From a virus, in IMG/VR virus record IMGVR_UViG_3300047321_000114, positions 1-39,691 of that record: a stretch of DNA of 39,691 nt. One strand, given 5' to 3'. The notes under the pieces are model-generated. The model was not told the origin of the DNA and ran no database searches. It saw nothing but the letters and a program-made list of their open reading frames with translations. This document shows, piece by piece, positions 8,693 to 38,063 of this stretch (position 1 is the stretch's first letter; every line of letters begins with the position of its first letter). The position numbers were made by a program, and so were the translations under genes.

Positions 8693-8787
8693 GCAAGGAA
8701 GGAACCAAGGAAGGTTGGAATCTTGGTTCTCGCCAAGTTTCCTTGATTGGTTTATTCTTTCCAAGATAACAAGGAAGGAAGGAACCA
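8693..8787 (+). promoter_or_regulatory. parS/operator-like repeat cluster and parA promoter
   Basis: This gap is full of CAAGGAA/GAACC repeats: AAGGAACCAAGGAAGG at 8699-8714, CTTGG-6-CCAAG at 8722-8737, TTTCCTTG at 8738-8745 and AAGGAAGGAAGGAACC before the parA start. A promoter TTGATT (8743-8748), 16 bases, GATAAC (8765-8770) lies inside the cluster. In type Ib partition systems the centromere and the operator lie just upstream of parA and bind the small partner protein, so this is the expected place. The 16-mer at 8699-8714 recurs inside the partner gene. Confidence 0.7.
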
Positions 8788-9432
8788 ATGAGAACGCTCG
8801 TGTTTTCCTGCCTGAAGGGCGGGAGCGGAAAGACGACGCATAGCGCGCACGTTGCTGTTGCGCTGGAACTGATGGGGAAGGGGCCAGTCGTTACGATGGA
8901 TCTCGACCCGCAAGGCTCGTTTTCCGCCTGGTGGAATGACCGGCAGGCCACGACGCCAGCGTTTGCCAAGGTGAAGGATGCGAAGCACCTGCCGGCAAAG
9001 CATGCCGAGCTGGCGACCGCGGGTTTCGAGTGGTGCATCATCGACACACCGCCGCAGGATCACGAGATAAACCGCACGGCGATCCGACTGGCCGATCTCG
9101 TCATTATTCCGGCCAAGCACTCGCCGCACGACATTCGGGCCGCAGAAAGCACGGTCGACTTGTGCGAGCAGGAGAACAAGAAGTTCTATTTTCTGCTCAA
9201 CGAGACGAACGGGAAGGCGGTCACGCTATCGGCCACGCGTAAGCTGGCGTCGATGGGGCCGGTTATCCCGCACGCCGTGCCGAAGCTGAACGGCTATTGG
9301 GAGTCGATGATCCCCGGCCTGACGTTTCAGGAAACGAGCCAAGGGACCGGCGCAATCATCATCGACAACGTGGTGAGCTTCCTTGTTGGGCTATTCGAAA
9401 AGCCAGCAATGAAGGAGAAGGCACATGTCTAA
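8788..9432 (+). CDS. parA: ParA-family partition ATPase (short, type Ib-like)
   Basis: A 214-residue ParA/MinD-type ATPase that would position phage-plasmid copies along the nucleoid. The deviant Walker A motif KGGSGKTT is at residues 10-17, Walker A' VTMDLDPQGS at about 35-44 and Walker B CIIDTPP at 83-89. There is no N-terminal helix-turn-helix, so it is of the short (type Ib, ParF-like) class that uses a separate small repressor/centromere-binding partner. That partner is encoded next with an eight-base overlap. Upstream repeats give the likely centromere. Such genes mark prophages that replicate as plasmids, such as P1-, N15- and KS14-like elements. Confidence 0.93.
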   Translation: MRTLVFSCLKGGSGKTTHSAHVAVALELMGKGPVVTMDLDPQGSFSAWWNDRQATTPAFAKVKDAKHLPAKHAELATAGFEWCIIDTPPQDHEINRTAIRLADLVIIPAKHSPHDIRAAESTVDLCEQENKKFYFLLNETNGKAVTLSATRKLASMGPVIPHAVPKLNGYWESMIPGLTFQETSQGTGAIIIDNVVSFLVGLFEKPAMKEKAHV

Positions 9433-9745
9433 GGCGACGCTCGATATGGTTGTGACGAAGAAGGGGGGCGCGGCGCCCGCAACCTTGGAAGCAAGCAAGG
9501 AAGAAACCAAGGAACCAAGGAAGGAAGCAACCAAGCAAGAACCTGAGAGAGAGGCGAGAAAACGCCCGTGGGACGGCCAAGACGATGTGATAAAGGCCAA
9601 TTATGAAGTGCCGCGCCGGATTCAGACGAAACTCCACACCCTCAAGACCTGGGGGAGGATCGAAAACCTAAAGGGGTTCGTGTCTGAGGCGCTAGAGAAG
9701 GCGCTGGATCGGGAGATCGCGGCAGCCGAGCGGGAAGGGTACTGA
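9425..9745 (+). CDS. ParG-like partition adaptor, ribbon-helix-helix
   Basis: A 106-residue protein. The first 45 residues are flexible and very charged (ASKEETKEPRKEATKQEPER). The last 55 (IKANYEVPRRIQTKLHTLKT, then KGFVSEALEKALDREI) fit a ribbon-helix-helix dimer: a short beta strand followed by two helices. A mobile charged tail plus RHH is the layout of ParG-type proteins that bind the centromere and stimulate ParA. The gene overlaps parA by eight bases and the next gene by TGATG. The DNA that encodes the tail repeats the centromere-like CCAAGGAA units. The assignment rests on context and fold, not on a close match. Confidence 0.72.
   Translation: MSKATLDMVVTKKGGAAPATLEASKEETKEPRKEATKQEPEREARKRPWDGQDDVIKANYEVPRRIQTKLHTLKTWGRIENLKGFVSEALEKALDREIAAAEREGY
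9493..9541. repeat. CAAGGAA/CCAAGGAA repeats inside the partition adaptor gene
   Basis: Within the coding sequence for the charged tail, CAAGGAA-type units occur three times in 30 bases. The 16-mer AAGGAACCAAGGAAGG at 9509-9524 is identical to 8699-8714 upstream of parA. The repeats continue as GAAGCAACCAAGC to about 9536. They could be a second binding site for the same protein. Confidence 0.7.
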
Positions 9746-10293
9746 TGAACGATCAGCCGGAGTTGTGGGAAGAATTGAAGGTCGAGAATCACTGGTTCCA
9801 CGTCGTGCGCGCGATGATCCAGCGCGACAAGATCGCCGAAATGGGTGTTCACGCGTGGGCGGTCTATTGCGTGCTCAAGAGCTACGCGGCGCTCGATACC
9901 GGGAAATCCTATCCGGGCCGTGATGCGATAGCCAGGCACGTAGGCGTGTCGCTGGATACCGTCGACCGGGCGCTATCGAAGCTGGACGAAATGGGGATAG
10001 TTGCGCGAAGGAAACTCGGGCGAAGCAATTCGTATGAACTGACGGAGCAAATACCGATGACCGCAGCAAATGGCGAGATCGCGATGCACGGTGAGGCGAA
10101 GTACGTCCCGATGCAGTTTCAACAGGTTTTAGACCAGCTGAAGGCGTTCGCGGCGAGCGGGAGTATGCAGGGAGGTCTAGAGGTCAAGATCGTCTTAAAC
10201 GCCAATTTCCTGACTGGCTCACATGCGACGGTAAACAACTACAATGCGCCGGCCGTTGTCGGAGTCGAAGTTACCCCCAAGAAGTCGGACTGA
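9745..10293 (+). CDS. winged-helix Rep-like protein (candidate replication initiator)
   Basis: A 182-residue protein whose first 95 residues match the HTH_36 type winged helix of plasmid and phage replication proteins: HVVRAMIQRDKIAEMGVHAW, YPGRDAIARHVGVSLDTVDR, ALSKLDEMGIVARRK. The rest is of lower complexity and includes MQGGLEVKIVLNANFLTG. It is co-transcribed with the two partition genes (TGATG overlap) and lies directly before a DnaA-box and repeat-rich noncoding segment. This is the usual place of an initiator gene. A transcription repressor of the same cassette is the alternative. Confidence 0.68.
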   Translation: MNDQPELWEELKVENHWFHVVRAMIQRDKIAEMGVHAWAVYCVLKSYAALDTGKSYPGRDAIARHVGVSLDTVDRALSKLDEMGIVARRKLGRSNSYELTEQIPMTAANGEIAMHGEAKYVPMQFQQVLDQLKAFAASGSMQGGLEVKIVLNANFLTGSHATVNNYNAPAVVGVEVTPKKSD

Positions 10294-10337
10294 GTTATCC
10301 CATCTAAAGACTTTAAGATATATAGAATCTATATAGT

Positions 10338-10418
10338 GCCGCTGGCCAGCGGCGTATTCGCCTCGATAAGCCGCTCACCAGCGGCGTATCAGAAAACAAT
10401 AGGCCGCTCGCCAGCGGC
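10338..10418. repeat. three phased GCCGCTnnCCAGCGGC palindromes (iteron-like)
   Basis: Copies are at 10338-10353 (perfect 16-bp palindrome GCCGCTGGCCAGCGGC), 10370-10385 and 10403-10418. All keep the six-base arms GCCGCT/AGCGGC, and the first two are followed by GTAT. The 32/33-bp periodicity puts them on the same face of the helix, as expected for cooperative initiator or ParB-type binding. Confidence 0.85.
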
Positions 10419-10492
10419 TAATGAAATGTTGTCCACAGCCAGTTATCCACAGATTCTGTGCGTAACCCTGTGCGCAATTTCCGTTCGATAAA

Positions 10493-10498
10493 TACTAT
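10493..10498 (+). promoter_or_regulatory. -10-like element before the acyltransferase gene
   Basis: TACTAT at 10493-10498, followed by TATG, resembles the -10 boxes at 36971 and 39465 (TACTATTA in all three). No good -35 box lies 16-18 bases upstream, so the promoter is weak or needs an activator. It would let the acyltransferase be expressed apart from the early operon. Confidence 0.35.
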
Positions 10499-10525
10499 TA
10501 TGTCAAATAACATAGGCGAGTAGCC

Positions 10526-11605
10526 GTGCACCAACATCTGCGCCGTCTTACTCCGCTCCGCTTCATCGCCGCACTTTTCGTCGTCCTGTTCCACTTCGGG
10601 CAATCCGTGCCACCGTTCAACGCGGCATGGATTCATCCGGCGATCGTGCATGGAAACAATGCCGTCTCGTTCTTCTATTGCCTGTCCGGCTTCATCATGG
10701 CGACGGTCTACCAAACGCCGATGAACTGGTTCGAGAAGAAGGAATACTGGTGGGCTCGCGTCGCCCGCATCTATCCGGTGTATCTGTTGTGCCTCGCCAT
10801 CAGCGCGATATGTATCTGGCAGTCGACGCCGACAGAAGTCGCGCTATCGGCGCTTCTGCTACAGGCATGGGTTCCGGGTTATCCGCTGACGCTGAATGCG
10901 CCGGGCTGGTCGCTGTCGGTCGAGGCGCTGTTCTACCTGCTGTTTCCGTTCATGGCGGGCGCGCTCACGCGGAAGCGCCTGCGAGCGACGGCGATCGGCG
11001 CGGTTGCGCTGTGGGTTGCAACGCAGTTCCTGACGTTCTACCTGATACGATTCCACTACGACGGCTATCCGTCGAAGTCGCACGATTTCATTTTCTACTT
11101 TCCGCTGATGCATCTGAGCGAATTCGTGCTCGGAGCGGCGGCGGGCGCCGCGTACCATCTCAAGAAACCCGGCGCTTCGCCGATATTGCTGATGTGCCTT
11201 GGGTCCGTCGCCGCTGTCGCGCTGCTGTTCGTGGCCGCGCCGCTGGTCGGGCTCTCTGCGTACCCGGCAAACGGTCTGTACGCGCCACTGTTCCTCGCCG
11301 GCATCTGGCTTGTCGCATCGCTGCCGCGGATCGGGCTGCTAGAGCACCACGTCGCCGTGACGCTCGGCGAAGCCAGTTACGCGATGTACCTGCTTCAATT
11401 CGTGGTGATGTACTGGATCGGAGGCAAGCTGCGCGAGGTGTATCCGATGGGCGACACGGCGCATTTCTATTTGTGCCTTGCGGTTCTCGTCGCCGCATCG
11501 CTTCTCGTCTATTTTTTCTTCGAGCGGCCAATGCGCGCAATCATCAAGCGCGCATATGGCGTCATGCTCAATCCGCGCAATAAAGTGAAGTCTATTTTGC
11601 GCTGA
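10526..11605 (+). CDS. membrane-bound acyltransferase (OafA/Oac family), putative O-antigen modification
   Basis: A 359-residue integral membrane protein of the acyltransferase_3 family, with about ten hydrophobic helices. The N-terminal LRFIAALFVVLFHFGQ carries the family histidine, followed by NNAVSFFYCLSGFIMA and the arginine-containing YWWARVARIYPVY. Such enzymes acetylate lipopolysaccharide O-antigen, and phage versions (for example Oac of Sf6) change the lysogen serotype and block superinfection. It lies at the end of the early arm, expressed possibly from its own start (GTG with GGCGAG upstream), next to a convergent beta-helix gene, with which it overlaps by 14 bases at the 3' ends. 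Confidence 0.9.
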   Translation: MHQHLRRLTPLRFIAALFVVLFHFGQSVPPFNAAWIHPAIVHGNNAVSFFYCLSGFIMATVYQTPMNWFEKKEYWWARVARIYPVYLLCLAISAICIWQSTPTEVALSALLLQAWVPGYPLTLNAPGWSLSVEALFYLLFPFMAGALTRKRLRATAIGAVALWVATQFLTFYLIRFHYDGYPSKSHDFIFYFPLMHLSEFVLGAAAGAAYHLKKPGASPILLMCLGSVAAVALLFVAAPLVGLSAYPANGLYAPLFLAGIWLVASLPRIGLLEHHVAVTLGEASYAMYLLQFVVMYWIGGKLREVYPMGDTAHFYLCLAVLVAASLLVYFFFERPMRAIIKRAYGVMLNPRNKVKSILR

Positions 11606-12950
11606 AAACGACACCGTCTAAACTGACGACGCTGCCAACGGCGCCGCCAGGGACGGCAATTTGCACAACTCCTGCCGACGAGATGTAAAGCACCGCGACC
11701 GTGTTCGCCTGCGTGATGGTCACGATTTCAAGATTGATCGGCGGAGCATAACCAGCCGGAAGCGTGAAGGCAGCGGCGCCGAGCGAACCTGTCCCGGCCG
11801 TAATGGCGCCGCGCAGCTCGACAAGTCCGTTCATTGCCTTCTTATAGCTCGGAGCGCTGCCGCCAGCCGTCCAATTGTTTGCAAAGGACGGAACGGCCTT
11901 GAAGTTGTTCGCGCCTAGCGTCGCAGTCCCGAGCAACAAATTGTTGCCCGGATCAACATCAGACACAGTCGCCGCGAACGTCCACGCAGAGTTGTACAGC
12001 GTATTTCCAGTGAACGAACCGCCAACCACATTCGCAATGGTAGTCGGCACCGAGTTAGCCCCGAGCCAGTTCTGTTTAATCTCGACCAGATTGTTAGTGC
12101 CGGTGAAATTGAATGCTGTCGCCGTACCGAGTTCGATGTAATTGCCATCGATTCGCACAGACGTGTAGTTAGCCATCGCAATTGCGGTCGCGTTACCTTC
12201 CATGTCCGTATCACGGATAACAATATTGTTCCCGCCGACGCCGAGCGAAATGCCGATGGCATTGGAGTTAAGCGCGCCCTTGTCCACGTACAAGCTGTTT
12301 GTGCCAGTCGTGCGCGTTGCGATTCCAGCAACGCTAGAGCCGTAAATAAACGGCGCGATGATCCGCGTGTTGTAGGACGCATTAAGTGCAATACATGTCG
12401 AGTAGTTATAGCAACCGACGTTTTGAACGAGAGCGCTGTTCGTGTTGCGCAGATATAACGCGGCGTTCGCGCCGGTAGCGGTCCCGCTATTGGGCTGCGC
12501 AAACGAGAAGTCGCGGAATACGTACTGCGTATCGAACAGATTCGTCGCACCGCCGACGCTCAAAAGATCCGGGAATGATCCGCCGAAATACTTGAGTTGC
12601 GTCGCGCGGCCATCGCCAAACAGCGTAAAAGATACGGTCGTAGTAAACGGGATATTGATGGTCGCCGAAATCTTGTAAGTGCCAGCGGGCATATACACGG
12701 CGGCGCCGTGCGGAAGCGACAGCGCATAATTGATGGCCGATTGGATCGCTGTAGTACTGTCGGTTGCGCCCGTCGCGTCGGCACCGAAATCCTTGATGCT
12801 GATCACATCCTGAAACTTTCCTTGAGCCGTCCGAGCCAAAGCGCCGGTGCCGGATTGCGTGAACCCAACGAGCTGCGCCGGGACCTGAGTAGTCGCCCAC
12901 GACGAAGCAACGCAGAAAGCCAGCGCGAGGCTGGCGATAATTCGTTTCAT
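11592..12950 (-). CDS. secreted pectate-lyase-like beta-helix protein (with signal peptide)
   Basis: A 452-residue protein that begins with a classical signal peptide, MKRIIASLALAFCVASSWA, with a likely cleavage after SWA. It continues with FTQSGTGALARTAQGKFQDV and the pectate lyase_3 start SIKDFGADATGATDSTTAIQ, followed by repetitive, asparagine- and glycine-rich beta-helix rungs to about residue 330 and a compact C-terminal domain (about 350-452). Its core resembles the tail spikes at 14190-16211 and 24605-26590, but it has no virion head-binding domain. A polysaccharide lyase or hydrolase acting in the periplasm or outside the cell is likely. AGGA precedes the start. It is last in the late operon. 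Confidence 0.85.
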   Translation of the reverse strand: MKRIIASLALAFCVASSWATTQVPAQLVGFTQSGTGALARTAQGKFQDVISIKDFGADATGATDSTTAIQSAINYALSLPHGAAVYMPAGTYKISATINIPFTTTVSFTLFGDGRATQLKYFGGSFPDLLSVGGATNLFDTQYVFRDFSFAQPNSGTATGANAALYLRNTNSALVQNVGCYNYSTCIALNASYNTRIIAPFIYGSSVAGIATRTTGTNSLYVDKGALNSNAIGISLGVGGNNIVIRDTDMEGNATAIAMANYTSVRIDGNYIELGTATAFNFTGTNNLVEIKQNWLGANSVPTTIANVVGGSFTGNTLYNSAWTFAATVSDVDPGNNLLLGTATLGANNFKAVPSFANNWTAGGSAPSYKKAMNGLVELRGAITAGTGSLGAAAFTLPAGYAPPINLEIVTITQANTVAVLYISSAGVVQIAVPGGAVGSVVSLDGVVFSAK

Positions 12951-14189: not shown

Positions 14190-16211
14190 TCAGGAAATCA
14201 GACCGTTCCCGAAAACCTTGACGGATACATAGGCGAAGTCAGTCAATACGCCAGATGCGTTAAATGTGTTCACTGTCACGTTTGATGGGGTCATGGCGTT
14301 TACGGTCCCGTAGCCGACACCGCTTCCGACCATCACGTCGACCGGATATACAGACAGCAAACCCGCCTTCTGGAACGTGACGCGATAGACACCCGTCCCC
14401 GTCTTGGTGATCTGCGGCGCGTTGTAGCTATACGTCGGCGTCGGCGAGGCTTGCGTACCATCGAACGTTGCCGCAGCGGACACCGTGAAATGGTCCGACT
14501 TGACAGGGCCCAAGAACACCGGACGTTCGACGCTCGATGCGTAGAGGTTGCCGTAATCGACCACATCGACGGGCGCGTTGGAGCCATCGTTGACGAAGAC
14601 GTAAGGCGTCGTCGATGACGGGACATAAGGGCCGAAACCAGCAAACCCGTTGCCGACCAGCGTCATCTTCACCGCGTTAGGCGGGTTCACATCAACAAGG
14701 ACGTTGTACGAGACGAACTGATTGACCGCGCTTGTGAGTCGGTTGAACGTGCAGCCGATCACCGTGATGGCAGTCGGGCCTTCGATGTTGTTGCCGGCCT
14801 GGAACCAGATGTCGGCCTTATAGGCGTTGTTCTCAAAATAAACGCCGTTGAACATCGCGGCGAGCGCACCGCTCAGGCCAACCGTGCCGTTGTTCGCAAT
14901 GACCGCTATACCATACCGATAGGTCGCCGAGCCCGTCAGGCCGTTACCCTGTACCGCACCGCCGATGAACGATACCGTCGACGGGTTGCCGACGAGAGCT
15001 GCATAGTTCTGGTTGTCGATGAATTCGCAGTCGATAAAGCTGATCGCGTTCGGCGGGGAATAAGCGCTGTAGTTGAGATTGACGCCGCCACCATTCACCG
15101 CAAACAGGCAGTCATAGAACGACGACTGCAAAACATCGGTGCCATTCATGCCGGTTGTGAACAACCGCGAGGCGACGTTGCGCATTACCACGCCCGACGC
15201 GAGGGTCAACTGAATACCAATGCTGCCGTTGATGGCCGACGTTCCGAGAAAGCGAATGTCGGACATCGTGAAATACGAATTCAGCGCACTCGGCGACGCC
15301 CCCGTGTAGGTGAATGCGGTTCCGCTGCCGGTGTAGTAAATCTGGCTCGCGCCCCATCCTGCGCCCTGGATGCTGACGTGCTTTAGATCGGAGTCTGTAA
15401 CGCCGCTCTGATCGAGCTTTAGGCCCGAGCCCGTAACAAGGTAATTGCCGGCAGGAAATTTCAGGACGCCGCCCACGCTCACAGCGTAATTGATCGCGTT
15501 CTGAATGCACGCGGTATCGTCCGTCGTGCCGTCGCCCTTTGCGCCAAAGTCCTTGACTGAGATCGTCTCGCGAAGGCGGTCTTGCACCGTGCGCTTAATA
15601 GCACCCGAACCGCCTTGCAGAAAACTCAACTTCGACGAACTGATACCCGCGCCGGCCGCGACAGTTTGGTCCGTGACGGACCCCGCAGACGGCGATCCGA
15701 CCGCCACCGAAAGGCCGCTTTTGGTGTAGACGTTCTGAATGCCGACAGGGATCGGGCTCGTAAAGGTAATGACCGAGCCGGACAGCGTGAAGTCGCTAGG
15801 TTCATGCTGCGGTACGCCGTCAAAGTCGACCCACAGATTCGAGGCGGTGCCGGGCGCGTTGGACAGCGTGAGTTGCGTCGTGGTGCCGGGCGTGAAGTCA
15901 GTTCCGGCGACGAACGCCTGATCGACCATATTCCCCGTAATGCCGGCGTTGGCATCGCACGTCAGTTGATCCCAGATCGTGACGCCTGCTGCGTCCTTGA
16001 CCACCTGACGGAACGTGCCATGCCCCCAAATGACAGCCTGGCCGCGACTGTCGAGCAGCACAGGATTCGTATTAGCCGCAGCGCCGGTCGGGTCTTGGTA
16101 TGTCGGCATCGGGTTCGTCGTGCCGGGCGCGTAGAAATACACCGACCCATTGGCAAGCGGCGCCCCGTTTTGGTCGATAAACTGCTGTTTCCCGTTTTGG
16201 AGAAGCTGCAT
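14190..16211 (-). CDS. tail spike with head-binding domain and pectate-lyase-like beta-helix
   Basis: A 673-residue receptor-binding protein, probably a polysaccharide depolymerase. Residues 1-110 (MQLLQNGKQQFIDQNGAPLA, then SVYFYAPGTT and LLDSRGQAVIWGHG) form the widespread phage tail-spike head-binding domain. Residues about 110-175 (GTTTQLTLSN to NVYTKSG) repeat a beta-domain also present in the virion protein at 21801-22409. From about residue 210 a pectate lyase_3 beta-helix follows, starting at ISVKDFGAKGDGTTDDTACI. A C-terminal beta domain probably trimerises. Two hairpin terminators lie just upstream, one downstream. Confidence 0.9.
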   Translation of the reverse strand: MQLLQNGKQQFIDQNGAPLANGSVYFYAPGTTNPMPTYQDPTGAAANTNPVLLDSRGQAVIWGHGTFRQVVKDAAGVTIWDQLTCDANAGITGNMVDQAFVAGTDFTPGTTTQLTLSNAPGTASNLWVDFDGVPQHEPSDFTLSGSVITFTSPIPVGIQNVYTKSGLSVAVGSPSAGSVTDQTVAAGAGISSSKLSFLQGGSGAIKRTVQDRLRETISVKDFGAKGDGTTDDTACIQNAINYAVSVGGVLKFPAGNYLVTGSGLKLDQSGVTDSDLKHVSIQGAGWGASQIYYTGSGTAFTYTGASPSALNSYFTMSDIRFLGTSAINGSIGIQLTLASGVVMRNVASRLFTTGMNGTDVLQSSFYDCLFAVNGGGVNLNYSAYSPPNAISFIDCEFIDNQNYAALVGNPSTVSFIGGAVQGNGLTGSATYRYGIAVIANNGTVGLSGALAAMFNGVYFENNAYKADIWFQAGNNIEGPTAITVIGCTFNRLTSAVNQFVSYNVLVDVNPPNAVKMTLVGNGFAGFGPYVPSSTTPYVFVNDGSNAPVDVVDYGNLYASSVERPVFLGPVKSDHFTVSAAATFDGTQASPTPTYSYNAPQITKTGTGVYRVTFQKAGLLSVYPVDVMVGSGVGYGTVNAMTPSNVTVNTFNASGVLTDFAYVSVKVFGNGLIS

Positions 16212-24604: not shown

Positions 24605-26590
24605 TTAGGCGAGCGTGAGGCTTGCGCTTCGCACTACTCCATCGGAACCCTTAACCTTGATCGTCAACTGTGTGTCGCTCGTAAGCTGGAACGACATAGA
24701 GCCGAGCGCACTCGGCGTTACCGAGGCGGGCGGAGTCAGTTCGACGTTCCGGCTAAATACGTTCGTCCATCGGGCACCGGACCCGCCAAGCGATGCCGTG
24801 CCGTCTGCATCCGTCGAGAGGTTGTTCGAATAGAAGCGGTAGCCATTGCTCCCGCAAGACAGCCTCCAGAAGTCAGACGACCACGTATAGAGCAAACCAC
24901 GCACGTTACCGTTGGCAGACACCATGTAGCCGTTCTGGCCTGTGCCGTCCGACAGCACAAGCGTCTCCCCGCTACCCACACACTCGTAAATCCACTTGTG
25001 TTCAGTGTAGGGAATGGCCGATCCGGACAGCGCATGCCGCCATTTCCATCGACCGGAAAGAGTGCCAAGGTATTCGCCCGTTGCATGGCAATACACCGGG
25101 TTGCTGTTCGCGCCGGAAAGCGGCTGTCCAGACTGGTCAAGCACGAAACTGCTGGAGATGTTCGGGCGCGTCCCGGGATGGTTGACTGCTACGACGTTCT
25201 GCGTGGCACCCGCCTCAAGCGTCACCCCGAAGCCGGTGTTCTGGAACGAGCCCGACAGGTAATTTCCGGTTCCCCATGTATGCACCGGCTGGTTGAACGT
25301 GCCCGCGAACAGCGCATTGGACACGCTGTTGTAGTTCGAGCCGGCCTCGAAGCGCACGCCGTCAGCGAGGTTATTCGACGGCCATTTCTGCGTGTTATGC
25401 ACCATCAGGTTCGACAGCACGTTGTAGCTGCCGATACCGTATTCCACGCCTGCGCCGCAGTTGTATGAGACGACATTGCTCGCTGCGCTGTACTGCGTAC
25501 CCGGCGTGGACGTGTTGCCGTAAGTCAGGCCGTTGTACGAGTTGCTGACGATGATGTCCGACGCGAGCGAATGCACGGTCGCGTTCTTGTACTCGACTGC
25601 GAATTCGTTGAGGCTGTCTGCATGGATGCCACGCATCATGCTGTACGCGCCATTGACGATCAGCGGGCCGTTGTTGTTCGTCGCGTTCGTCAGATTGCCT
25701 GTCACGTTCACGTCTTCGATACGAATATCGTTGACGGTCGCGTTATTGTTGGGGTAGACGATGATCGCCGAACCGGACCCGCTCAATCCCGTGATATTCA
25801 CATCACGGATCGTCACGTCGTTGACGTCGATCAGCGAGATAGGATGGCCGGTCGTCGCAAGTTGCGAGTTGGGCGTCTGCAACGTCAGGTCCGTAATGCG
25901 CGTTCCGTTGACGTTCGTGTTGCTGAGAATCGAATTCGTGGCCGACGAAGTTTGCACTAGAGTCGTCGTCGCCTTCGAGTCTCCCCTAAGTCGCAGTGGC
26001 TTCGTGAGCGACTGCGCAAAATTCGTCATGTTGTACGTGCCATCGGGGATGCGCACAGTGCTATTCGCCGCGATCGTATTGGCAAGCTGCACCGAGTTGT
26101 CGGCAGCTCCCGTGCTCGCACTATAGTCCTGCGGCGTGGCGGGAAGCTCGTTCAGCTTGGCGATGACCGAGCGGACGATGGCTCCCGTCCCGCTTTGCGT
26201 GAATCCCTGGTACGTCTGGATAACCCATTGCGCGATCTTCGTGAGTGTCGTTTGCACGACTCCGCCGGCCTGCTTGATGTTGGCGGTTTCAGTGCCGTCA
26301 AGCGCAGCGGCGGGCGGAATACTCGCGCTCGATCCAGACGAATCAAGCACGATGCCCGTTTGTGTTCGCGTTACGTGACCGATCGCGCTAATAACAAGCG
26401 TGTAATTACCATCGGCAGCGTAGAACGCGAACTGACCGTTAGCGCCTGCTTTGATCGGATTATCGGCGATGGTCACGCCGTTGTCGCTGTAGATCGTGGC
26501 CTGGGCGCCTGTCGCTGTCAGAACGCGAATGCTTGCGCCTGCAACGGGCGTTCCGTTGTTATGCGTTACGCTGTCTTGGTATTGCTGCAT
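24605..26590 (-). CDS. tail spike/fibre with different adaptor domain and beta-helix
   Basis: A 661-residue protein. The N-terminal 90 residues (MQQYQDSVTHNNGTPVAGAS, QATIYSDNGVTIADNPI, GNYTLVISAIGHV) form a carboxypeptidase-regulatory-like beta domain found at the start of many podovirus tail fibres. FTQSGTGAIVRSVIAKLNEL leads to a beta-helix rich in NV, DV and NG rungs (residues about 190-430). The C-terminal part ends with a tail-like sandwich. It lies unusually between the coat and gp4-like genes and starts at the stop of the 109-residue gene (TAATG). It is likely a second receptor-binding protein. Confidence 0.88.
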   Translation of the reverse strand: MQQYQDSVTHNNGTPVAGASIRVLTATGAQATIYSDNGVTIADNPIKAGANGQFAFYAADGNYTLVISAIGHVTRTQTGIVLDSSGSSASIPPAAALDGTETANIKQAGGVVQTTLTKIAQWVIQTYQGFTQSGTGAIVRSVIAKLNELPATPQDYSASTGAADNSVQLANTIAANSTVRIPDGTYNMTNFAQSLTKPLRLRGDSKATTTLVQTSSATNSILSNTNVNGTRITDLTLQTPNSQLATTGHPISLIDVNDVTIRDVNITGLSGSGSAIIVYPNNNATVNDIRIEDVNVTGNLTNATNNNGPLIVNGAYSMMRGIHADSLNEFAVEYKNATVHSLASDIIVSNSYNGLTYGNTSTPGTQYSAASNVVSYNCGAGVEYGIGSYNVLSNLMVHNTQKWPSNNLADGVRFEAGSNYNSVSNALFAGTFNQPVHTWGTGNYLSGSFQNTGFGVTLEAGATQNVVAVNHPGTRPNISSSFVLDQSGQPLSGANSNPVYCHATGEYLGTLSGRWKWRHALSGSAIPYTEHKWIYECVGSGETLVLSDGTGQNGYMVSANGNVRGLLYTWSSDFWRLSCGSNGYRFYSNNLSTDADGTASLGGSGARWTNVFSRNVELTPPASVTPSALGSMSFQLTSDTQLTIKVKGSDGVVRSASLTLA

Positions 26591-26978: not shown

Positions 26979-28187
26979 TCAGCGGACGATACGGCAGGCG
27001 AGTTCCGGATAGACCGCCGCCCATCCGTACAGCACGTCGATACGGCACGGCACGGTATCGGTGCCGATCGCGTACTGACGCGAGATACGCATCGAAATGC
27101 CCTTGTGCATGCGACGAGCACCCCATGCGCCGTACTGCGACACGTCTTCGAGGTCAGCGGTCACGAGCGTGAACGCATCCTTGTGGTACGCCAGGTTCGC
27201 GCTGTACTGCGTCGACGGCGCCACGTCCCACGTCACGACAGCAGCGTTCGCCGGGCCAGCCGAAACCGTCTGGTACTGCTGGTTGCTTGCCGCGGTGTTG
27301 ATCGCCGGGAAGATCGACAGCGTTGCGTTGCCCGAGCCATCAGCCGTTGCCGGTGCGGTAACGGTGAACTTGCGCAGCACGCCGGTCGACTGGCGGTTCT
27401 GCGGGTTCACGGCGTAGACGCCAGCGATCTGGAACGTATCGCCCTTCGCGACGCTCGCGGCAGCGCCGAGACCGGTCACGGTCAGCGTCGAGCCGGTTTG
27501 ACCAGCGCCGGAAACGGTGCCGTTCGTGCGCGTGCCGGACGTGAACACGTTGATGTTCTGGTCCATGCCGATGTCGAAGCCGAGCGACGAAGCCTGGAAG
27601 ATGCCGGATTCGTACTGAGCGCCGATCGAGCGCGACGGGTTGAACAGGCCGGATGCAGCCTTGACCATCGACGCGTTCGTTGCCGGGTCCCACACGACCG
27701 TGCGGCTACCATCGCGCGGCGTTGCTTCGTTGTCGAGCACGCTACCAGCGGAGAGCAGCGTTGCAATGTCGTTCGGCGTGGTGCCGACCGTGCCGACGTT
27801 GTTCGCGACGTTTGCAGCGAGGCCCAAGCCGTCAAAGTCGATCTTGTTGGCGATGGTCGCCATTGCCGGCTTGATGTAGCGATCGGCGAACTCGTCGACA
27901 ACCAGCGTCAGTTCTTGCGACGAGAACGTGAAGTCAACGTGGAACTGAGTCGTCAAGCTGATCGGCAGCGACGATTCGTTCACGTTTTCGATGTTCAGGT
28001 TCGGGCCGGTCGTACCGACGAAGCGGTTCGGCTTACGTGCGTTGACGGTCGAGCCGATCTTCGCGCCGCTGACGGCGAATTCCTTGCTGTATTCGCGGTT
28101 TGCGCGCGAGGAGAACGTGAGGTTGTTCTCCAAGATCATCAGCGATTCGTCGAGGATCTTGGTCGGGGTAAGAAGCGTATTTGCCAT
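26979..28187 (-). CDS. major capsid protein, P22 coat (gp5) family
   Basis: A 402-residue coat protein of the P22 gp5 family. The opening MANTLLTPTKILDESLMILE, the following RANREYSKEF and STVNARKPNRF, and the SLPISLTTQFHVDFTFSSQE segment are family signatures; the HK97-like core follows with LTLVVDEFADRYIKPAMATI. An inserted Ig-like domain is probable around residues 220-290 (TVSGAGQTGSTLTVTGLGAA). About 415 copies would build a T=7 shell in P22; the same is likely here. It follows the scaffold gene by seven bases and precedes a strong terminator. Confidence 0.95.
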   Translation of the reverse strand: MANTLLTPTKILDESLMILENNLTFSSRANREYSKEFAVSGAKIGSTVNARKPNRFVGTTGPNLNIENVNESSLPISLTTQFHVDFTFSSQELTLVVDEFADRYIKPAMATIANKIDFDGLGLAANVANNVGTVGTTPNDIATLLSAGSVLDNEATPRDGSRTVVWDPATNASMVKAASGLFNPSRSIGAQYESGIFQASSLGFDIGMDQNINVFTSGTRTNGTVSGAGQTGSTLTVTGLGAAASVAKGDTFQIAGVYAVNPQNRQSTGVLRKFTVTAPATADGSGNATLSIFPAINTAASNQQYQTVSAGPANAAVVTWDVAPSTQYSANLAYHKDAFTLVTADLEDVSQYGAWGARRMHKGISMRISRQYAIGTDTVPCRIDVLYGWAAVYPELACRIVR

Positions 28188-28960: not shown

Positions 28961-31087
28961 TTATTGCTGTTGAGCGGGCAAAGAAAAACCCGCACTAGGC
29001 GGGTTCGGTTGTTGCGGCATTTGTTGCATCGGGTCAGGCGGTGGAGCGCCGCCTTCTGGCGCGCCGGTCTGCATCATCTGCATGACGACTTGCGTAGCCA
29101 GGTGAGAGACAAGCGCAGGATCGACGGGCCCAAGAGCCTGCATGCGCTTCGTTTCCGAGTCGTATGCCTTGATGTTCGTCTCCTGCTGCTCCTTGCCCTG
29201 CTGCGCCTCTTGGAGCTGCTGCGTCAAGTGCTCGATCATCTGGCCCATGTGCTGCATTTTCTGCGTAGCGTCCTGCATTTCCGGCGTCGGACCCTCACCC
29301 AAGATCGCGGGCGAGATCGTGCGATGCAGACGTTCGGCCACTTCATCAGCCATCGGGAAGTCAGCAGCCTTGAACAGCAGGTCGCCAGCAACCTTCATCA
29401 GTTCCTGATCCTGGCTCATGATCTGCGTAAGCGCGTTGAACGCTTCCTGCCGGCGCGTCTCATAGTTCGGGCCAACTTCGACCGTCACGTCATAGCGCCC
29501 GATGCCAGGGTTGTAGATCAGCTTTACGTCCTTCAGATGGTCGCGCTCACTCTCTGGCGGCGCCGGCTGTCCGTCAGGCAATCCGACCGGGTGTTGCTGG
29601 TCCGGGTTGAACTGCGCAAACGTCTCCGTGCCGTCCTCGCCGATGATGCGAATCACGCGCGCCGTGTCGTAGATCTTCGGGATCAGGTCAATCAGAATGC
29701 GGCCGGTGTAGCGAATGGCGCGCGCAACGTTGTCGATAAAGTGATACGTTGCACGGTCGCCCTGCCGCTGACGGGCCTGAATTGCGACGCCCGCCTGAGC
29801 GTTCGACTGCTGGCCGAACTGCTCCTGATACTGGCCGGTCGTCATCATCAGTTCCTGCTGCGCGGTCTGCATGCCTTGCAGGTACGCAGAGGCCCCTACA
29901 GGCGGCTGCTCGCGCTGCGGACGCTCGATAGGCTGTCCGGACTCGTCCCACGCGTTATAGGGCAGATACGGCAGGTTGTCTTTGTTCGCGTTCGCCCACT
30001 CGCTTTCGTATCCCTCGAAGGCTGCGGCCGGGCCGACAAATGGCGTCTTGGTCTGAAGCGCGATGTACTCGACGTTCGCCGACGACATGTAGTTGTACAT
30101 GCGCTGCGCATCCTTCTGATTGCGCGTATGACCCTTGCGCTCGACCTTGCCGTCGATCACGATCTCTTCGCCGATGACGCGCACGATCGGGATATAGCGT
30201 CCCGCCCACGGCTTTTCGTCGATGATCTTGTCGCCAGCGATCAGATACCACGTGATCTGCGGCTGACTCACCGGGCGCTTCTGCACACTCGGGTCGCTCT
30301 CGATGACCTTGCGCTCTTCCGGGTCTTCGACTTCCGACAGCATCATCGGGCCGTTGACCGGGTGATTGATCAGCGTGTCGGTCTTGGTCGTCTTGCGGAA
30401 ATACTCGCAGACGCGAATCTTGTCCTTGCTGATCCAGTCGCTGCCGGTCGTATCGTCACCGAACACAACGCTTTGCGCGTCCTCGCCCGGGTAAGTCGCC
30501 TCGAATTCGGTTTTCGACATCTGCTCGAAGACAAAGGCGAACTTCATATCGGAGCCGTCTGCGGACTCAATATCCGGGTCGGTGTAGACCGTCAGCGGGT
30601 TTTTGACGCGGCGCAGGAAGATTTCCTGATCGAACGAGCCGTCATGCGCGTACTCGCACACCACGCGCCAGTAACCGAGCCCCGCCTGCACAGCGAACTC
30701 TGTCGCCGTGTCGTACACAATCTCGGCGTGCGAGTTGTATTCGATGTGGCGAACGATGCCGTCGAGAATCTTCGCGATCTCAATGTCCGCGTCGCCGTCG
30801 ACCGGCAGCGTCTTCACGCTCGGCTTGTTCTGCTTCGCATCGTTGATGATCTGCAGATTGTGCTGACGCGTCTTGTTGATCGTCAGGCACGGCCGGCTGT
30901 CGCCTTCGCGCGTGTTGCGGATCGCATCGGGCCATTGCCAGCCGTTATCCGCGTCGCCATTGGCGAACTTCAGGTCTTCAACGAAGCGCTTGCGGAACTC
31001 GCTCTCTGCTTCCTCGCAACGCGCGAAACGCTCTTTCGCCTCGCTGACAATCTTCGCTTTCGGATCTTCTTTCGGCTTTCGCGCCAT
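28961..31087 (-). CDS. portal protein, P22 gp1-like
   Basis: A 708-residue portal protein, close to the 725 residues of P22 gp1. It forms the twelve-part ring through which DNA is packaged and ejected. The N-terminal FVEDLKFANGDADNGWQWPD, CLTINKTRQHNLQIINDAKQ and YWRVVCEYAHDGSFDQEIFL are typical of the P22-like portal family. A long glutamine-rich helical region (residues about 610-670) corresponds to the barrel. The start at 31087 lies two bases after the terL stop. The last codons run through an intrinsic terminator hairpin (28984-29005). Confidence 0.95.
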   Translation of the reverse strand: MARKPKEDPKAKIVSEAKERFARCEEAESEFRKRFVEDLKFANGDADNGWQWPDAIRNTREGDSRPCLTINKTRQHNLQIINDAKQNKPSVKTLPVDGDADIEIAKILDGIVRHIEYNSHAEIVYDTATEFAVQAGLGYWRVVCEYAHDGSFDQEIFLRRVKNPLTVYTDPDIESADGSDMKFAFVFEQMSKTEFEATYPGEDAQSVVFGDDTTGSDWISKDKIRVCEYFRKTTKTDTLINHPVNGPMMLSEVEDPEERKVIESDPSVQKRPVSQPQITWYLIAGDKIIDEKPWAGRYIPIVRVIGEEIVIDGKVERKGHTRNQKDAQRMYNYMSSANVEYIALQTKTPFVGPAAAFEGYESEWANANKDNLPYLPYNAWDESGQPIERPQREQPPVGASAYLQGMQTAQQELMMTTGQYQEQFGQQSNAQAGVAIQARQRQGDRATYHFIDNVARAIRYTGRILIDLIPKIYDTARVIRIIGEDGTETFAQFNPDQQHPVGLPDGQPAPPESERDHLKDVKLIYNPGIGRYDVTVEVGPNYETRRQEAFNALTQIMSQDQELMKVAGDLLFKAADFPMADEVAERLHRTISPAILGEGPTPEMQDATQKMQHMGQMIEHLTQQLQEAQQGKEQQETNIKAYDSETKRMQALGPVDPALVSHLATQVVMQMMQTGAPEGGAPPPDPMQQMPQQPNPPSAGFSLPAQQQ
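28984..29005 (-). terminator. intrinsic terminator inside the 3' end of the portal gene
   Basis: On the minus strand ACCCGC-CTAGT-GCGGGT is followed by TTTTTC. It lies about 20 bases before the portal stop codon, so its stem encodes NPPSAG and the T-run encodes FS. Confidence 0.7.
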
Positions 31088-31088
31088 A

Positions 31089-32327
31089 TCATCCCATCCA
31101 GGCGCCACCACCTATCACGGTGCGGCGAATCGTCGGTTTCGGTTGTGGTTTCGGAGCCTTACCAGCGCGTCGTGCGCCCTCACAGGCGTACCGCAGCGCG
31201 TCGATGACGTGGTTGTCCTTGTCTTCGAGCATCGGCAGGATGGCGCCCGTGAGTGGGTCTTCCTTGTACTTATAGAGCGTCAGTTCGTCGATCAGATGCT
31301 TGCAGCGCGGGTGAACGATGATGTCGAACGACTTAAGAAACTCGACGCCCTCTTCCAGCGACTTCGCGCCCTTGATGGCCGGGCGAATCTTCGGGAAGCC
31401 GTTCTTCTGCATGTGGCTGATCGTTTCCGGCCGCGCAGAGTCAGCCGTGATCGGCCATTTCTCTGCGTCAGGAACTCCCATGAACAGTTCAGGCAGGTTC
31501 ACGATCTCGCAACCGACCATGTACGCCTCATAGTCGACATACAGACGATTGCCGTCTATATCGCATCGAATCAGCACGGACGGATCGACCGAGAAGCCCC
31601 AGTCCGCACCCAACCGATGAATGGTGCCGCCCGGCCGTTCGAATTCCTCGATGCGCCAGTTCTTGAACACGCGCGCTTCGCTGTTCTGCTGGTATGCGCC
31701 AAGCCAGATATGCGCGTACTTGTCCGGGTCGCGCCGCTTGTCGTACTCCATTTCAATGCGCAACTCGTCGGGGAGCCACGGATTGTCCATGTAGTTCGCC
31801 TCGACCACGACAGCGCCAGGCGGCGGCTCCTCACCACGCAGCAGCGCATCTACCGGGTCAGTCGACTCGCGCGGGTTCCATGAGAACCACAGTTCGGATC
31901 CGGGCTTACGAATGGTCGGGCGCAGCAGGTCGAGCGATCGCTGGCTCAGGCTCTGTGCTTCCTCGACCCATGCGATGTCGAAGCCTTCGAGTGACTTGAT
32001 CGACTCCGCGGTGTGGTTCTGCATGCCCTGAAACATGATCAGGCCGCCATGCGTCGACTTGATCTGCGCGTCCTGCACGTCGAAGTAGGCGCCGGCGTTC
32101 AACGCCTCAATCTTTCCTTCGAGCAGCTTCTTGACCGATTGCTTGAGCGACTTCTGGACTTCACGAACGCATACAGCGTCCGTCTTTTCCATGATGCTGC
32201 GCTCGATCAGCATTTCGCCGAAGAAATGCGACTTGCCTGATCCTCGCCCGCCGTGTCCGCCCTTGTAGCGAGCAGGCCCGAGCAGCGGCACGAAGACTTC
32301 AGGCGTCTGAATTTGGAGGATTGACAA
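31089..32327 (-). CDS. terL: terminase large subunit, PBSX/Terminase_3 type
   Basis: A 412-residue DNA-packaging motor. The ATPase domain has Walker A GGRGSGKS at residues 26-33 and Walker B FDIAWVEEAQ at 116-124 with the catalytic glutamate. The nuclease domain has the aspartates of LGADWGFSVDP, ITADSARPE and KDNHVIDALRY. The family is usually linked with headful (pac) packaging, which fits the P22-like head. The start is a TTG at 32327, overlapping terS by 29 bases; no ATG lies before the Walker motif. The operon continues with the portal gene. Confidence 0.95.
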   Translation of the reverse strand: MSILQIQTPEVFVPLLGPARYKGGHGGRGSGKSHFFGEMLIERSIMEKTDAVCVREVQKSLKQSVKKLLEGKIEALNAGAYFDVQDAQIKSTHGGLIMFQGMQNHTAESIKSLEGFDIAWVEEAQSLSQRSLDLLRPTIRKPGSELWFSWNPRESTDPVDALLRGEEPPPGAVVVEANYMDNPWLPDELRIEMEYDKRRDPDKYAHIWLGAYQQNSEARVFKNWRIEEFERPGGTIHRLGADWGFSVDPSVLIRCDIDGNRLYVDYEAYMVGCEIVNLPELFMGVPDAEKWPITADSARPETISHMQKNGFPKIRPAIKGAKSLEEGVEFLKSFDIIVHPRCKHLIDELTLYKYKEDPLTGAILPMLEDKDNHVIDALRYACEGARRAGKAPKPQPKPTIRRTVIGGGAWMG

Positions 32328-36377: not shown

Positions 36378-36806
36378 TCACTTCCGGCGCCGGCCCTGCT
36401 CGACCAGCGTTTCGAGTGGCTTGTTCGTCACTAGCGCGCTCATGACCTTGAACATGGCGATGCGGGTCGCTTCAGGAGCCTGGTTGTAGAGCGCCATCAC
36501 GGAGTCACTGAACGCCTTCGCGTCGTCATCCTTGGTGAGTTGGTCCTGCGAGTGGTCGGAGTCGAGCCAGCCGCGCGGGAGGTTCAGCGCGTCTTCTATC
36601 CGGTCCCGGATGTTCGAGCCCGCCAGCTTGTGGCCGCTCATGATCTGGCGGAAATTGATAACGCTGATCCCCAACCTCTCGGCGAACAGCTTCAGCATGC
36701 CTCGCTCGGGATGCTCCGGATACTGCGCTCGGATCTCGTCCTTGAATTGCTCCAACAAGAATTTCAGGTTCCGTCGACGAACCTGATCCACTGTTTCGAT
36801 TGTCAC
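36378..36806 (-). CDS. XRE-type phage repressor (CI analogue)
   Basis: A 142-residue protein. The helix-turn-helix lies near residues 40-85 (GMLKLFAERLGISVINFRQI, then MSGHKLAGSNIRDRIEDALN, LPRGWLD), as in XRE/CI-type repressors of Burkholderia prophages. The C-terminal part is a helical dimer-like domain; there is no S24 peptidase domain, so it is not cleaved by the LexA route and induction must work in another way. The GTG at 36806 with AGGGA in front is preferred over a GTG at 36839. Both flanks carry the element GGCATCGTTTC or a variant. Confidence 0.82.
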   Translation of the reverse strand: MTIETVDQVRRRNLKFLLEQFKDEIRAQYPEHPERGMLKLFAERLGISVINFRQIMSGHKLAGSNIRDRIEDALNLPRGWLDSDHSQDQLTKDDDAKAFSDSVMALYNQAPEATRIAMFKVMSALVTNKPLETLVEQGRRRK

Positions 36807-36841
36807 TTTCAGTCCCTTAGGTAAGTGCGCCGTGTGCACGC

Positions 36842-37035: not shown

Positions 37036-37800
37036 ATGGCAACCATGTTATTCGACGAGCCGCCGCTTGTCGTCTCCCCCACTTTAGCCTGCGCCATCGG
37101 CCTTCACGAAGCGATCGTCCTACAGCAGATGCACTACTGGCTGTCGCACAGCAAGTTCGTCCACGATGACCGTCATTGGGTATACAACACCTATGAGGAC
37201 TGGGCGAAGCAGTTCCCGTTCTGGAAGCCGGAAACCATCCGCAAGATCATCGCCAAGCTGCGCGGTGACGGGCTGATCGACATCGCCAAGCTGTCGGATA
37301 ACCCTTGGGACAAGACCAACTATTACGCGATCAACTATGCGGTTTTGGCTACGCATGGCGCCCGCATCGATGCGGAAAAATCCACCGCATCAGAGCGGAA
37401 ATCTGCACCGGTTCAGATGCGGAAAAATCCACCGCATCACTGTACAGAGAATACAGAGACTACTACAGAGAATACAGAGCGCGCTCCGCGCACCGACCTC
37501 TCCTTCGCGGAATGGATCGAAACCTGCAAAACCTCGGGCGAGCGTCCCGTCCCTGAAAGCGATCCTGTCTTTGAATATGCCGAGAAGGCAGGTCTTCCGC
37601 TCGACTACATCGTGCTGCACTGGAAAGAGTTCAAAGAGCGCTATGCCACTGACGGCAAGCGTTACAAGGACTGGCGCGCGGTCTATCGCAAGTCAGTTCG
37701 TGGCAACTGGTTCCGACTCTGGTTTTTCAATGCTGACGGCGTTTGCACGCTGACGACGCAGGGCCAACAAGCTAACCGCATTCACAAGGAGCAAGCATGA
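37036..37800 (+). CDS. O/DnaT-like replisome organizer
   Basis: A 254-residue replication protein. Residues 1-105 form a winged-helix domain with the signature IGLHEAIVLQQMHYWLSHSK, then WVYNTYEDWAKQFPFWKPET and LRGDGLIDIAKLSDN. A flexible linker (110-155) contains KSTASERKSAP and a TENTE repeat. The C terminus ends with KDWRAVYRKSVRGNWFRLWF, like the DnaT/phage primosome C-terminal domain that loads the helicase. It acts with the DnaB-type helicase encoded after it. The linker DNA carries iteron-like repeats (37369-37479), as the lambda O gene does. GAGGAAAG precedes the ATG. Confidence 0.88.
   Translation: MATMLFDEPPLVVSPTLACAIGLHEAIVLQQMHYWLSHSKFVHDDRHWVYNTYEDWAKQFPFWKPETIRKIIAKLRGDGLIDIAKLSDNPWDKTNYYAINYAVLATHGARIDAEKSTASERKSAPVQMRKNPPHHCTENTETTTENTERAPRTDLSFAEWIETCKTSGERPVPESDPVFEYAEKAGLPLDYIVLHWKEFKERYATDGKRYKDWRAVYRKSVRGNWFRLWFFNADGVCTLTTQGQQANRIHKEQA
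37369..37439. repeat. iteron-like 24-bp repeats inside the replisome organizer gene (candidate lytic origin)
   Basis: An exact 24-bp repeat occurs at 37369-37392 and 37416-37439; each copy starts GATGCGG and ends CCGCATCA, so it is itself an inverted repeat around an A-rich centre. The 23 bases between them (GAGCGGAAATC and on) are a degenerate third copy, so the three units lie in direct tandem. CCCGCATC at 37361-37368 joins the first as a further half-site. Confidence 0.85.
37443..37479. repeat. 16-bp direct repeat TACAGAGAATACAGAG, two copies
   Basis: Exact copies at 37443-37458 and 37464-37479, 21 bases apart, encode the TENTE repeats of the linker. They directly follow the iterons and may be part of the same origin. 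Confidence 0.85.
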
Positions 37801-38063
37801 GCACGAAACATACGCCGAGACCGTGGCACGTTGATGGCGACGGAGGAATTTCCTGCGAGATTGGCTTGAACAAGGATTGGCCGATCGCTGATTGCTCCGG
37901 GCCTGACCGATCCGCGAATGCCGTTCTTATCGCTGCTTCACCGGATCTATTGGCATTTGCAGCGGAGTTCGTCGAAGCATGGGATTTGGGAATGGCCGGC
38001 GATTCATCGTTGCTCAAATCTGCCCGCGCTGCCATCGCCAAAGCAACCGGAGAACAGGCATGA
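37797..38063 (+). CDS. small phage protein, MSTKHTP family (second copy)
   Basis: An 88-residue protein that begins MSTKHTPRPW and ends AAIAKATGEQA, with the family core VLIAASPDLLAFAAEFVEAW. It is a paralogue of the 124-residue protein at 3266-3640: 29 of the first 30 bases and a 23-base block near the 3' end (38034-38056) are identical to it. The middle differs and lacks the cysteines. AAGGAG precedes the ATG, and it overlaps both neighbours by ATGA, between the organizer and the helicase. Confidence 0.82.
   Translation: MSTKHTPRPWHVDGDGGISCEIGLNKDWPIADCSGPDRSANAVLIAASPDLLAFAAEFVEAWDLGMAGDSSLLKSARAAIAKATGEQA

Follow-up and report, generated by a model that had tools for sequence, protein, structure and literature searches.

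We analyzed a viral DNA of 39,691 bases, the IMG/VR virus contig IMGVR_UViG_3300047321_000114 (hereafter the window; all positions refer to this whole stretch), and concluded that it is very probably a phage-plasmid of P22-like podoviral type, whose prophage would be kept as a low-copy circular plasmid. The element in question is a compact plasmid cassette at 8693-10525, consisting of parA, a ribbon-helix-helix (RHH)-like open reading frame (ORF), a winged helix-turn-helix (wHTH) Rep-like gene and the noncoding segment 10294-10525. The low-copy plasmid prophage had been proposed in an earlier sequence-only reading of the window. It is now supported because the genome is a complete circle without a recombinase, the cassette is common to plasmids, the architecture of the origin is conserved, and integrase and cassette exclude each other among related phages; it is from these that we infer the extrachromosomal state.

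The opening 127 bases of the window are identical to its closing 127 bases, so that the map closes into a circle of 39,564 bp. End overlaps were also found in related records (127 bases in three, 105 in a fourth). An overlap of this kind fits either a true circle or headful, circularly permuted virion DNA, the assembler output being alike in both cases. The genome is complete under either origin of the overlap, and therefore the absence of a gene is meaningful. The window is thus the complete circular map of a P22-type podovirus genome, and its host, a soil-type bacterium, is probably one of the Burkholderiales. In addition to the portal and coat genes (Table 1), it carries genes for head closure, Hc3/tail accessory, DNA ejection, terminase and tailspike proteins. 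As expected of a phage-plasmid, these tailed-phage genes for structure and packaging occur together with plasmid partition genes (ParA and the RHH-like partner). The phage also has its own O/DnaD-like initiator and DnaB-like helicase, in a lytic-cycle gene set that further holds an Erf-like annealing protein and RusA, and the cassette is therefore a second replication system. Of the CI-like repressor named in the sequence-only reading, a transcriptional repressor gene was confirmed, with weak PHROG matches only.

No integrase had been recognised in the sequence-only reading, and the presence of a divergent recombinase was set beforehand as the finding that would speak against a plasmid prophage. 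Searches of the complete map for tyrosine and serine recombinases (PF00589 at E ≤ 10 and PF00239 at E ≤ 1) were empty, and a divergent integrase was rejected for the complete genome. The window holds no tRNA and no tRNA attP. Among 29 viral records of at least 28 kb with this P22 portal type, ParA was present in 10, a full-length Rep in the same 10, an integrase in 11 (mostly near the contig end), both in none and neither in 8 (Fisher p = 0.003 for the exclusion of integrase and ParA plus Rep, in records that lack phylogenetic independence). Bacterial genomes with portal relatives are those of Pandoraea eparura (portal 80%, coat 84% identical) and Paraburkholderia kirstenboschensis (portal 70%, coat 76% identical), where the virion gene order is the same as in the window. 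Unlike the window, both are prophages inserted at tRNA genes (tRNA-Met and tRNA-Arg) and carry an integrase and no ParA; a ParA-type Walker motif was not found in either prophage. The P. kirstenboschensis prophage runs integrase, acyltransferase, lysis/tail, and the window Rep/origin, acyltransferase, tail. The integrase thus occupies the slot held by Rep and the origin in the window, with a related acyltransferase next in both.

The three cassette proteins are encoded in one overlapping operon, as the sequence-only reading had described: the RHH-like ORF shares 8 bp with parA, and its stop overlaps the start of the wHTH gene. Family searches of the outer two proteins, which that reading had suggested, returned partition families for ParA, and HTH_36 and PHROG replication-initiator families for Rep. 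ParA matched Pfam AAA_31/MipZ/VirC1 and the PHROG 'ParA-like partition protein' (E = 4e-26), and its match to NF041546, 'ParA family partition ATPase', lies under the cut-off of the model despite an E-value of 1e-34. Its best PDB relatives were 5u1g (pNOB8 ParA) and 4dzz (TP228 ParF), the latter matched over the full length. The protein is short, lacks an N-terminal HTH and has a deviant Walker A near residue 10, and a repeat array lies upstream of its gene, as in type Ib partition systems. The middle protein had been called a ParG-like RHH partner. The ORF is in place and a helix-helix fold is predicted; no family model matched it in searches of Pfam, PHROG and further family models, and the top match of its model in a fold search was ParD, at a non-significant E of 2.3. 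AlphaFold2 predicted disorder for residues 1-40 and, with confidence, a C-terminal helix-helix domain; the NYEVP preceding the helix pair is as expected for an RHH protein. We retain the label for its predicted fold and its position.

The wHTH protein matched several PHROG replication-initiator families more weakly than HTH_36. Its AlphaFold2 model has a mean predicted local distance difference test score (pLDDT) of 69 and a core at 85-95. The top VIA structural alignments of the model include the RepA initiators 4pql and 4pt7 (Z 7.4), tied with generic wHTH proteins, so that the likeness to staphylococcal RepA initiator domains is only suggestive. A fold search with the model gave middling matches only, although a family absent from the search set may still exist. 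RepA_N was not among the Pfam matches of the protein at E ≤ 0.01, and we do not place it in that family. A scan of bacterial genomes with the Rep-family alignment (A3) gave no match.

The third protein could instead be a second DNA-binding partition protein or an autorepressor, like TubR or AspA; the cassette would then serve partition only, and lysogenic replication would run via the O-like initiator. TubR was the top PDB profile match of the wHTH protein (E = 1e-4) and AspA was also among the matches, the protein is short at 182 aa, and the phage has that other initiator. However, the PHROG matches include replication initiators, and the arrangement is not that of TubZRC, as the TubR match is weak and the neighbour of the wHTH gene encodes a ParA ATPase and not a TubZ GTPase. 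A Polaromonas plasmid with the same gene order has no other recognised Rep. The palindromes described below track the wHTH protein, not ParA, and downstream of its gene they are accompanied by DnaA boxes and an AT-rich segment. We therefore consider a partition-only cassette improbable, and take the wHTH protein as a candidate initiator, Rep.

The noncoding segment holds, where the sequence-only reading had placed them, two DnaA boxes, an AT palindrome and three phased palindromes. The latter are 16-bp copies of GCCGCTNNCCAGCGGC, spaced 32 and 33 bp, or about three helical turns; three such copies occurred in none of 300 shuffles. The DnaA-box pair at 10429/10443 is the only cluster in the genome, against 0.02 expected in the stretch. 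In the 320 bp downstream of Rep at 22 loci with this Rep family, 31 DnaA boxes were counted vs. 0.53 expected from shuffles, and most of these loci have two or three same-arm palindromes, which were missing from nearly all shuffles. The arms fall into GCCGC-, GTCGC-, GTGCA-, GTGTC-, GTCTC-, GTTCA- and CCCTT- types across the cassettes. In locus L015, whose Rep is about 59% identical, both palindrome arms are altered together, and in relatives Rep and origin are kept as a unit while the flanks are replaced. Repeated candidate Rep sites, DnaA boxes and an AT-rich segment beside rep, the expected parts of an iteron/DnaA-box plasmid origin, are all present here. Locus L046 serves as a natural negative: it has a member of the same Rep family next to an integrase and no ParA, and shows neither DnaA box nor repeated palindrome. 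This orphan Rep-family gene (7980-8570 of L046) is perhaps a remnant of, or a regulator derived from, a cassette. The window has no Rfam match, and no RNA-regulated replicon was recognised. The gene adjoining the origin, at 10526-11605, encodes an acyltransferase (Acyl_transf_3/O-acetyltransferase) and is probably a receptor-modifying lysogenic conversion gene.

On the other side of the cassette, AAGGAA occurs seven times within 200 bp upstream of parA. The repeats recur in the RHH gene, in its 5' half, to a degree that the amino acids do not require: 31 7-mers are common to the upstream region and the gene, whereas 2000 synonymous re-encodings gave 9 on average and never more than 23. In other cassettes the motif switches jointly at both places, to CTAGAAA in L025 and to CCAAGAAA in L027. 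The RHH protein probably owes its low-complexity N-terminal tail to partition-site DNA, as a by-product.

Comparison of the cassettes suggests two halves that move INDEPENDENTLY, Rep with the palindromes and ParA with the RHH protein and the repeats. In L005 and L007-L013, Rep is 92-97% identical and ParA is unrelated or just 31% identical; those loci whose downstream DNA could be seen retain the palindromes. Conversely, L018 and L020 have ParA 94-97% and RHH proteins 94-98% identical, and Rep 33-34% identical; L020 retains the AAGGAA/CCAAGG repeats upstream of parA and has GTGCA-type palindromes. From these mosaics, the downstream palindromes go with Rep and the upstream repeats with ParA and the RHH protein.

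Behind the origin lies a dif-like site with the core motif GATAA-N6-TTATGTCAA at 10487-10506. The sequence-only reading, correct about the cassette itself, had missed this site; the phage's own initiator and DnaB are a further correction to it. Of the 27 cassette records, 16 have the motif, each as a single copy, and none of the 11 P22-like records with an integrase has it. It is lacking in all five cassette records with a tyrosine recombinase (p = 0.006); one-mismatch forms were seen in G006, G007 and G032. The layout is 11-6-11 with ATAA/TTAT inner halves, and the XerD arm TTATGTCAAAT matches 10/11 to that of the chromosomal dif-like site of Pandoraea (TTCGCATAA-TGTACA-TTATGTTAAAT). In the XerC arm, GATAA stands where CATAA is expected, and the outer part is variable. 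The site is usually found shortly behind Rep and sometimes kilobases off, and therefore is not part of the origin. A promoter was set aside as an explanation of the motif, since no -35 is conserved and the distance to genes varies. The simplest reading, which we favour by a little, is a dimer-resolution site for the host XerCD.

The same ATAA-N6-TTAT core and 10/11 XerD-arm match might instead point to integration at the chromosomal dif via host XerCD, as filamentous phages do, with the par-rep genes stabilising a transient circle. Integration is less likely because the six central bases (ATACTA) differ from those of the host dif (TGTACA) and vary between phage groups, which suits resolution of identical copies; moreover, no relative was found inserted at dif, and cassettes with their own tyrosine recombinase lack the site. 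We regard this route as very unlikely. Least probable of all is that an essentially lytic or defective phage captured these plasmid genes by chance and that they have no role in lysogeny: phages do pick up plasmid genes and many have ParA homologues, but the whole architecture is kept in ten P22-like and several unrelated phages with sites matched to each protein variant, and integrase and cassette are mutually exclusive.

Table 1. Positions of the cassette, its sites and other genes in the window.
Feature	Position	Strand	Remarks
Putative centromere/operator (parS-like), AAGGAA/CCAAGG repeats upstream of parA	8693-8787		
ParA partition ATPase, short type Ib, ParF-like	8788-9432	+	214 aa; KGGSGKT Walker A
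RHH-like putative centromere-binding partner	9425-9745	+	106 aa; disordered N-terminal tail (AlphaFold2); order conserved across cassettes
Second copy of partition-site repeats, inside RHH coding sequence	9482-9548		Shared 7-mers with upstream region
Winged-helix Rep-like initiator (candidate)	9745-10293	+	182 aa; HTH_36 E = 8e-8; PHROG replication-initiator families
Putative plasmid origin with the AT-rich palindrome, the three palindromes (candidate Rep sites) and the DnaA-box pair	10294-10460		Conserved with compensatory changes in L015
AT-rich palindrome	about 10315-10336		
Palindrome 1	10338-10353		GCCGCTGGCCAGCGGC
Palindrome 2	10370-10385		GCCGCTCACCAGCGGC
Palindrome 3	10403-10418		GCCGCTCGCCAGCGGC
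DnaA box	10429-10437	+	TTGTCCACA
DnaA box	10443-10451	+	TTATCCACA
Dif-like site, putative host XerCD dimer-resolution site	10481-10508	+	CCGTTCGATAA-ATACTA-TTATGTCAAAT; core motif 10487-10506
P22-type coat protein	26979-28187	-	PF11651 E = 6e-50
P22-type portal protein	28961-31111	-	PF16510 E = 7e-174
Putative lysogeny repressor	36378-36839	-	PHROG transcriptional repressor matches, weak, E = 1e-6
O/DnaD-like replication initiator, phage's own (lytic)	37036-37800	+	PHROG 6493 E = 4e-37
DnaB-like helicase	37979-39433	+	PHROG 19 E = 2e-110

We propose the following scheme for the plasmid prophage. The three phased palindromes that closely follow the rep gene would be bound by Rep and the two adjacent boxes by DnaA, and the AT-rich palindrome would open. 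The RHH protein would bind the repeats upstream of parA that recur in its own gene and, together with ParA, would position and segregate the plasmid; multimers would probably be resolved by host XerCD at the dif-like site. Lytic growth would run on the separate O-like initiator and DnaB, and with this system held off by the repressor the prophage would be a low-copy plasmid.

Several points weigh against a plasmid prophage, whose physical state is inferred. The 127-bp end overlap is also expected if the virion DNA is packaged by the headful and circularly permuted. The Rep model is only moderately confident, generic winged helices score as well as its other structural matches, and the PDB sequence profile puts a partition protein first. 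The P22-like records behind the exclusion count lack phylogenetic independence, and in 8 of the 29 both integrase and cassette are missing. In the dif-like site, the XerC half is poor.

We give about even odds to a broader proposal, that these phages form an unrecognised podoviral phage-plasmid family. Here an exchangeable plasmid module would replace the integrase, its partition and replication halves would be swapped independently to give many compatibility groups, the repeats would recur in the gene of their binder, and host XerCD would resolve dimers at a dif-like site that is absent when the phage has its own tyrosine recombinase. In the P22-like virion lineage of Burkholderiales, integrase and plasmid module are alternatives, and the change from one way of lysogeny to the other can be compared directly between related phages; the independent swapping of the two halves looks like an escape from incompatibility. 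The Rep family, the palindromes and the dif-like site may serve as search signatures for more phage-plasmids in metagenomes.

A few features elsewhere in the window were also recorded. Three separate tailspike-like genes were found (11592-12950, 14190-16211 and 24605-26590), two of them with matches to the same families of tail proteins, and the modules flanking them differ among relatives. A 747-aa open frame at 28964-31207 (+), antisense to the portal gene, is probably a codon-phase effect of GC-rich DNA. At 323-512, 190 bp share 81.7% DNA identity with Kratiovirus mycobacteriophages (e.g., Guillsminger gene 47), which is surprising for such distant hosts; the frame encoded there (NPKHYTSHPSGVQCIEVVEHMGFN...) resembles a small widespread phage protein.

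Only two Rep relatives were found in a collection of 72,556 plasmid records, Polaromonas pA29BJ2 and Acinetobacter pRBH2-3. Plasmid pA29BJ2 (NZ_MN657148, 104 kb) has the same order of ParA, small protein and HTH protein, with Rep 35% identical; downstream of Rep it has three DnaA boxes and a set of three 16-bp palindromes (CCCTTATNNNTAAGGG-like). Unlike the window, it is a cargo plasmid without phage genes, its ParA is 29% identical over 109 residues, and its palindrome and upstream repeats are different. No other initiator is annotated in it, and nine further unannotated proteins gave no initiator match; the three-gene cassette is apparently its replicon. Acinetobacter phage vB_IME_Ab2712 and plasmid pRBH2-3 (Schitoviridae, 75 kb), the same genome type on record as phage and as plasmid, share ParA (37%), small protein and HTH Rep (30%) with the window, arranged in the same order. 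They differ from it as N4-type podoviruses with their own DNA polymerase, a serine-type recombinase and no DnaA box downstream of Rep. In viral contigs the cassette was also seen in G004, a circular phage of 41.4 kb whose head genes are different, and in circular elements of 77 and 105 kb.

The partition half resembles TP228 ParF-ParG and other type Ib systems in its short ParA, putative RHH-type partner and upstream repeats. ParA loci of Xanthomonas citri plasmids are similar: their ParA (48% identical) precedes a small ORF and a RepA. In contrast to such loci, the window has repeats inside the RHH gene as well, and its Rep belongs to another family. RepA proteins of staphylococcal multiresistance plasmids (4pql, 4pt7, 4pta and 5kbj) share a winged-helix origin-binding domain (Z 6.6-7.4), yet the root-mean-square deviation is 4.9-7.5 Å, the matches are tied with unrelated wHTH proteins, and RepA_N is missing from the Pfam matches of the window's Rep.

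The circular P22-like records examined in the plasmid database (pAS51-4, pB1.H1.1.c7, paNv_CH9 and Salmonella CP043906) were rejected as precedents. Each carries an integrase and lacks an annotated partition gene, and they are therefore read as excised ordinary phages. Leptospira plasmids NZ_CP043879, NZ_CP092160 and NZ_CP006727 encode a distant P22-type coat protein (26%) and are possible further P22-capsid phage-plasmids. Searches of the open-access literature gave neither a P22-type lineage with this cassette nor P22-like phage-plasmids, and no paper on pA29BJ2. The claim that a podoviral phage-plasmid would be unusual is tempered by Ab2712/pRBH2-3 and by the Pseudomonas aeruginosa podovirus F116, for which a plasmid state was reported in 1977, yet which carries an integrase (PMC5217972).

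Phage-plasmids are already known as a kind, and the P22-type lineage with a ParA-RHH-wHTH cassette appears, as far as we found, new to the literature. Catalogued types comprise P1, N15, SSU5-related groups, AB and cp32 (PMC12977533), and circular phages with partition genes were described from glacial metagenomes (PMC4490671). P1, N15, SSU5-like, AB, cp32 and F116 phages resemble the window in being temperate with a plasmid-like lysogenic state. The catalogued types are mostly myo- and siphoviruses of enterobacteria and Acinetobacter; the key examples listed are myo- and siphoviruses, and none is described as a P22-type phage with this cassette. With a cassette common to an ordinary plasmid, an N4-type phage and the P22-like phage analyzed here, a concrete route between the plasmid and phage gene pools can be traced.

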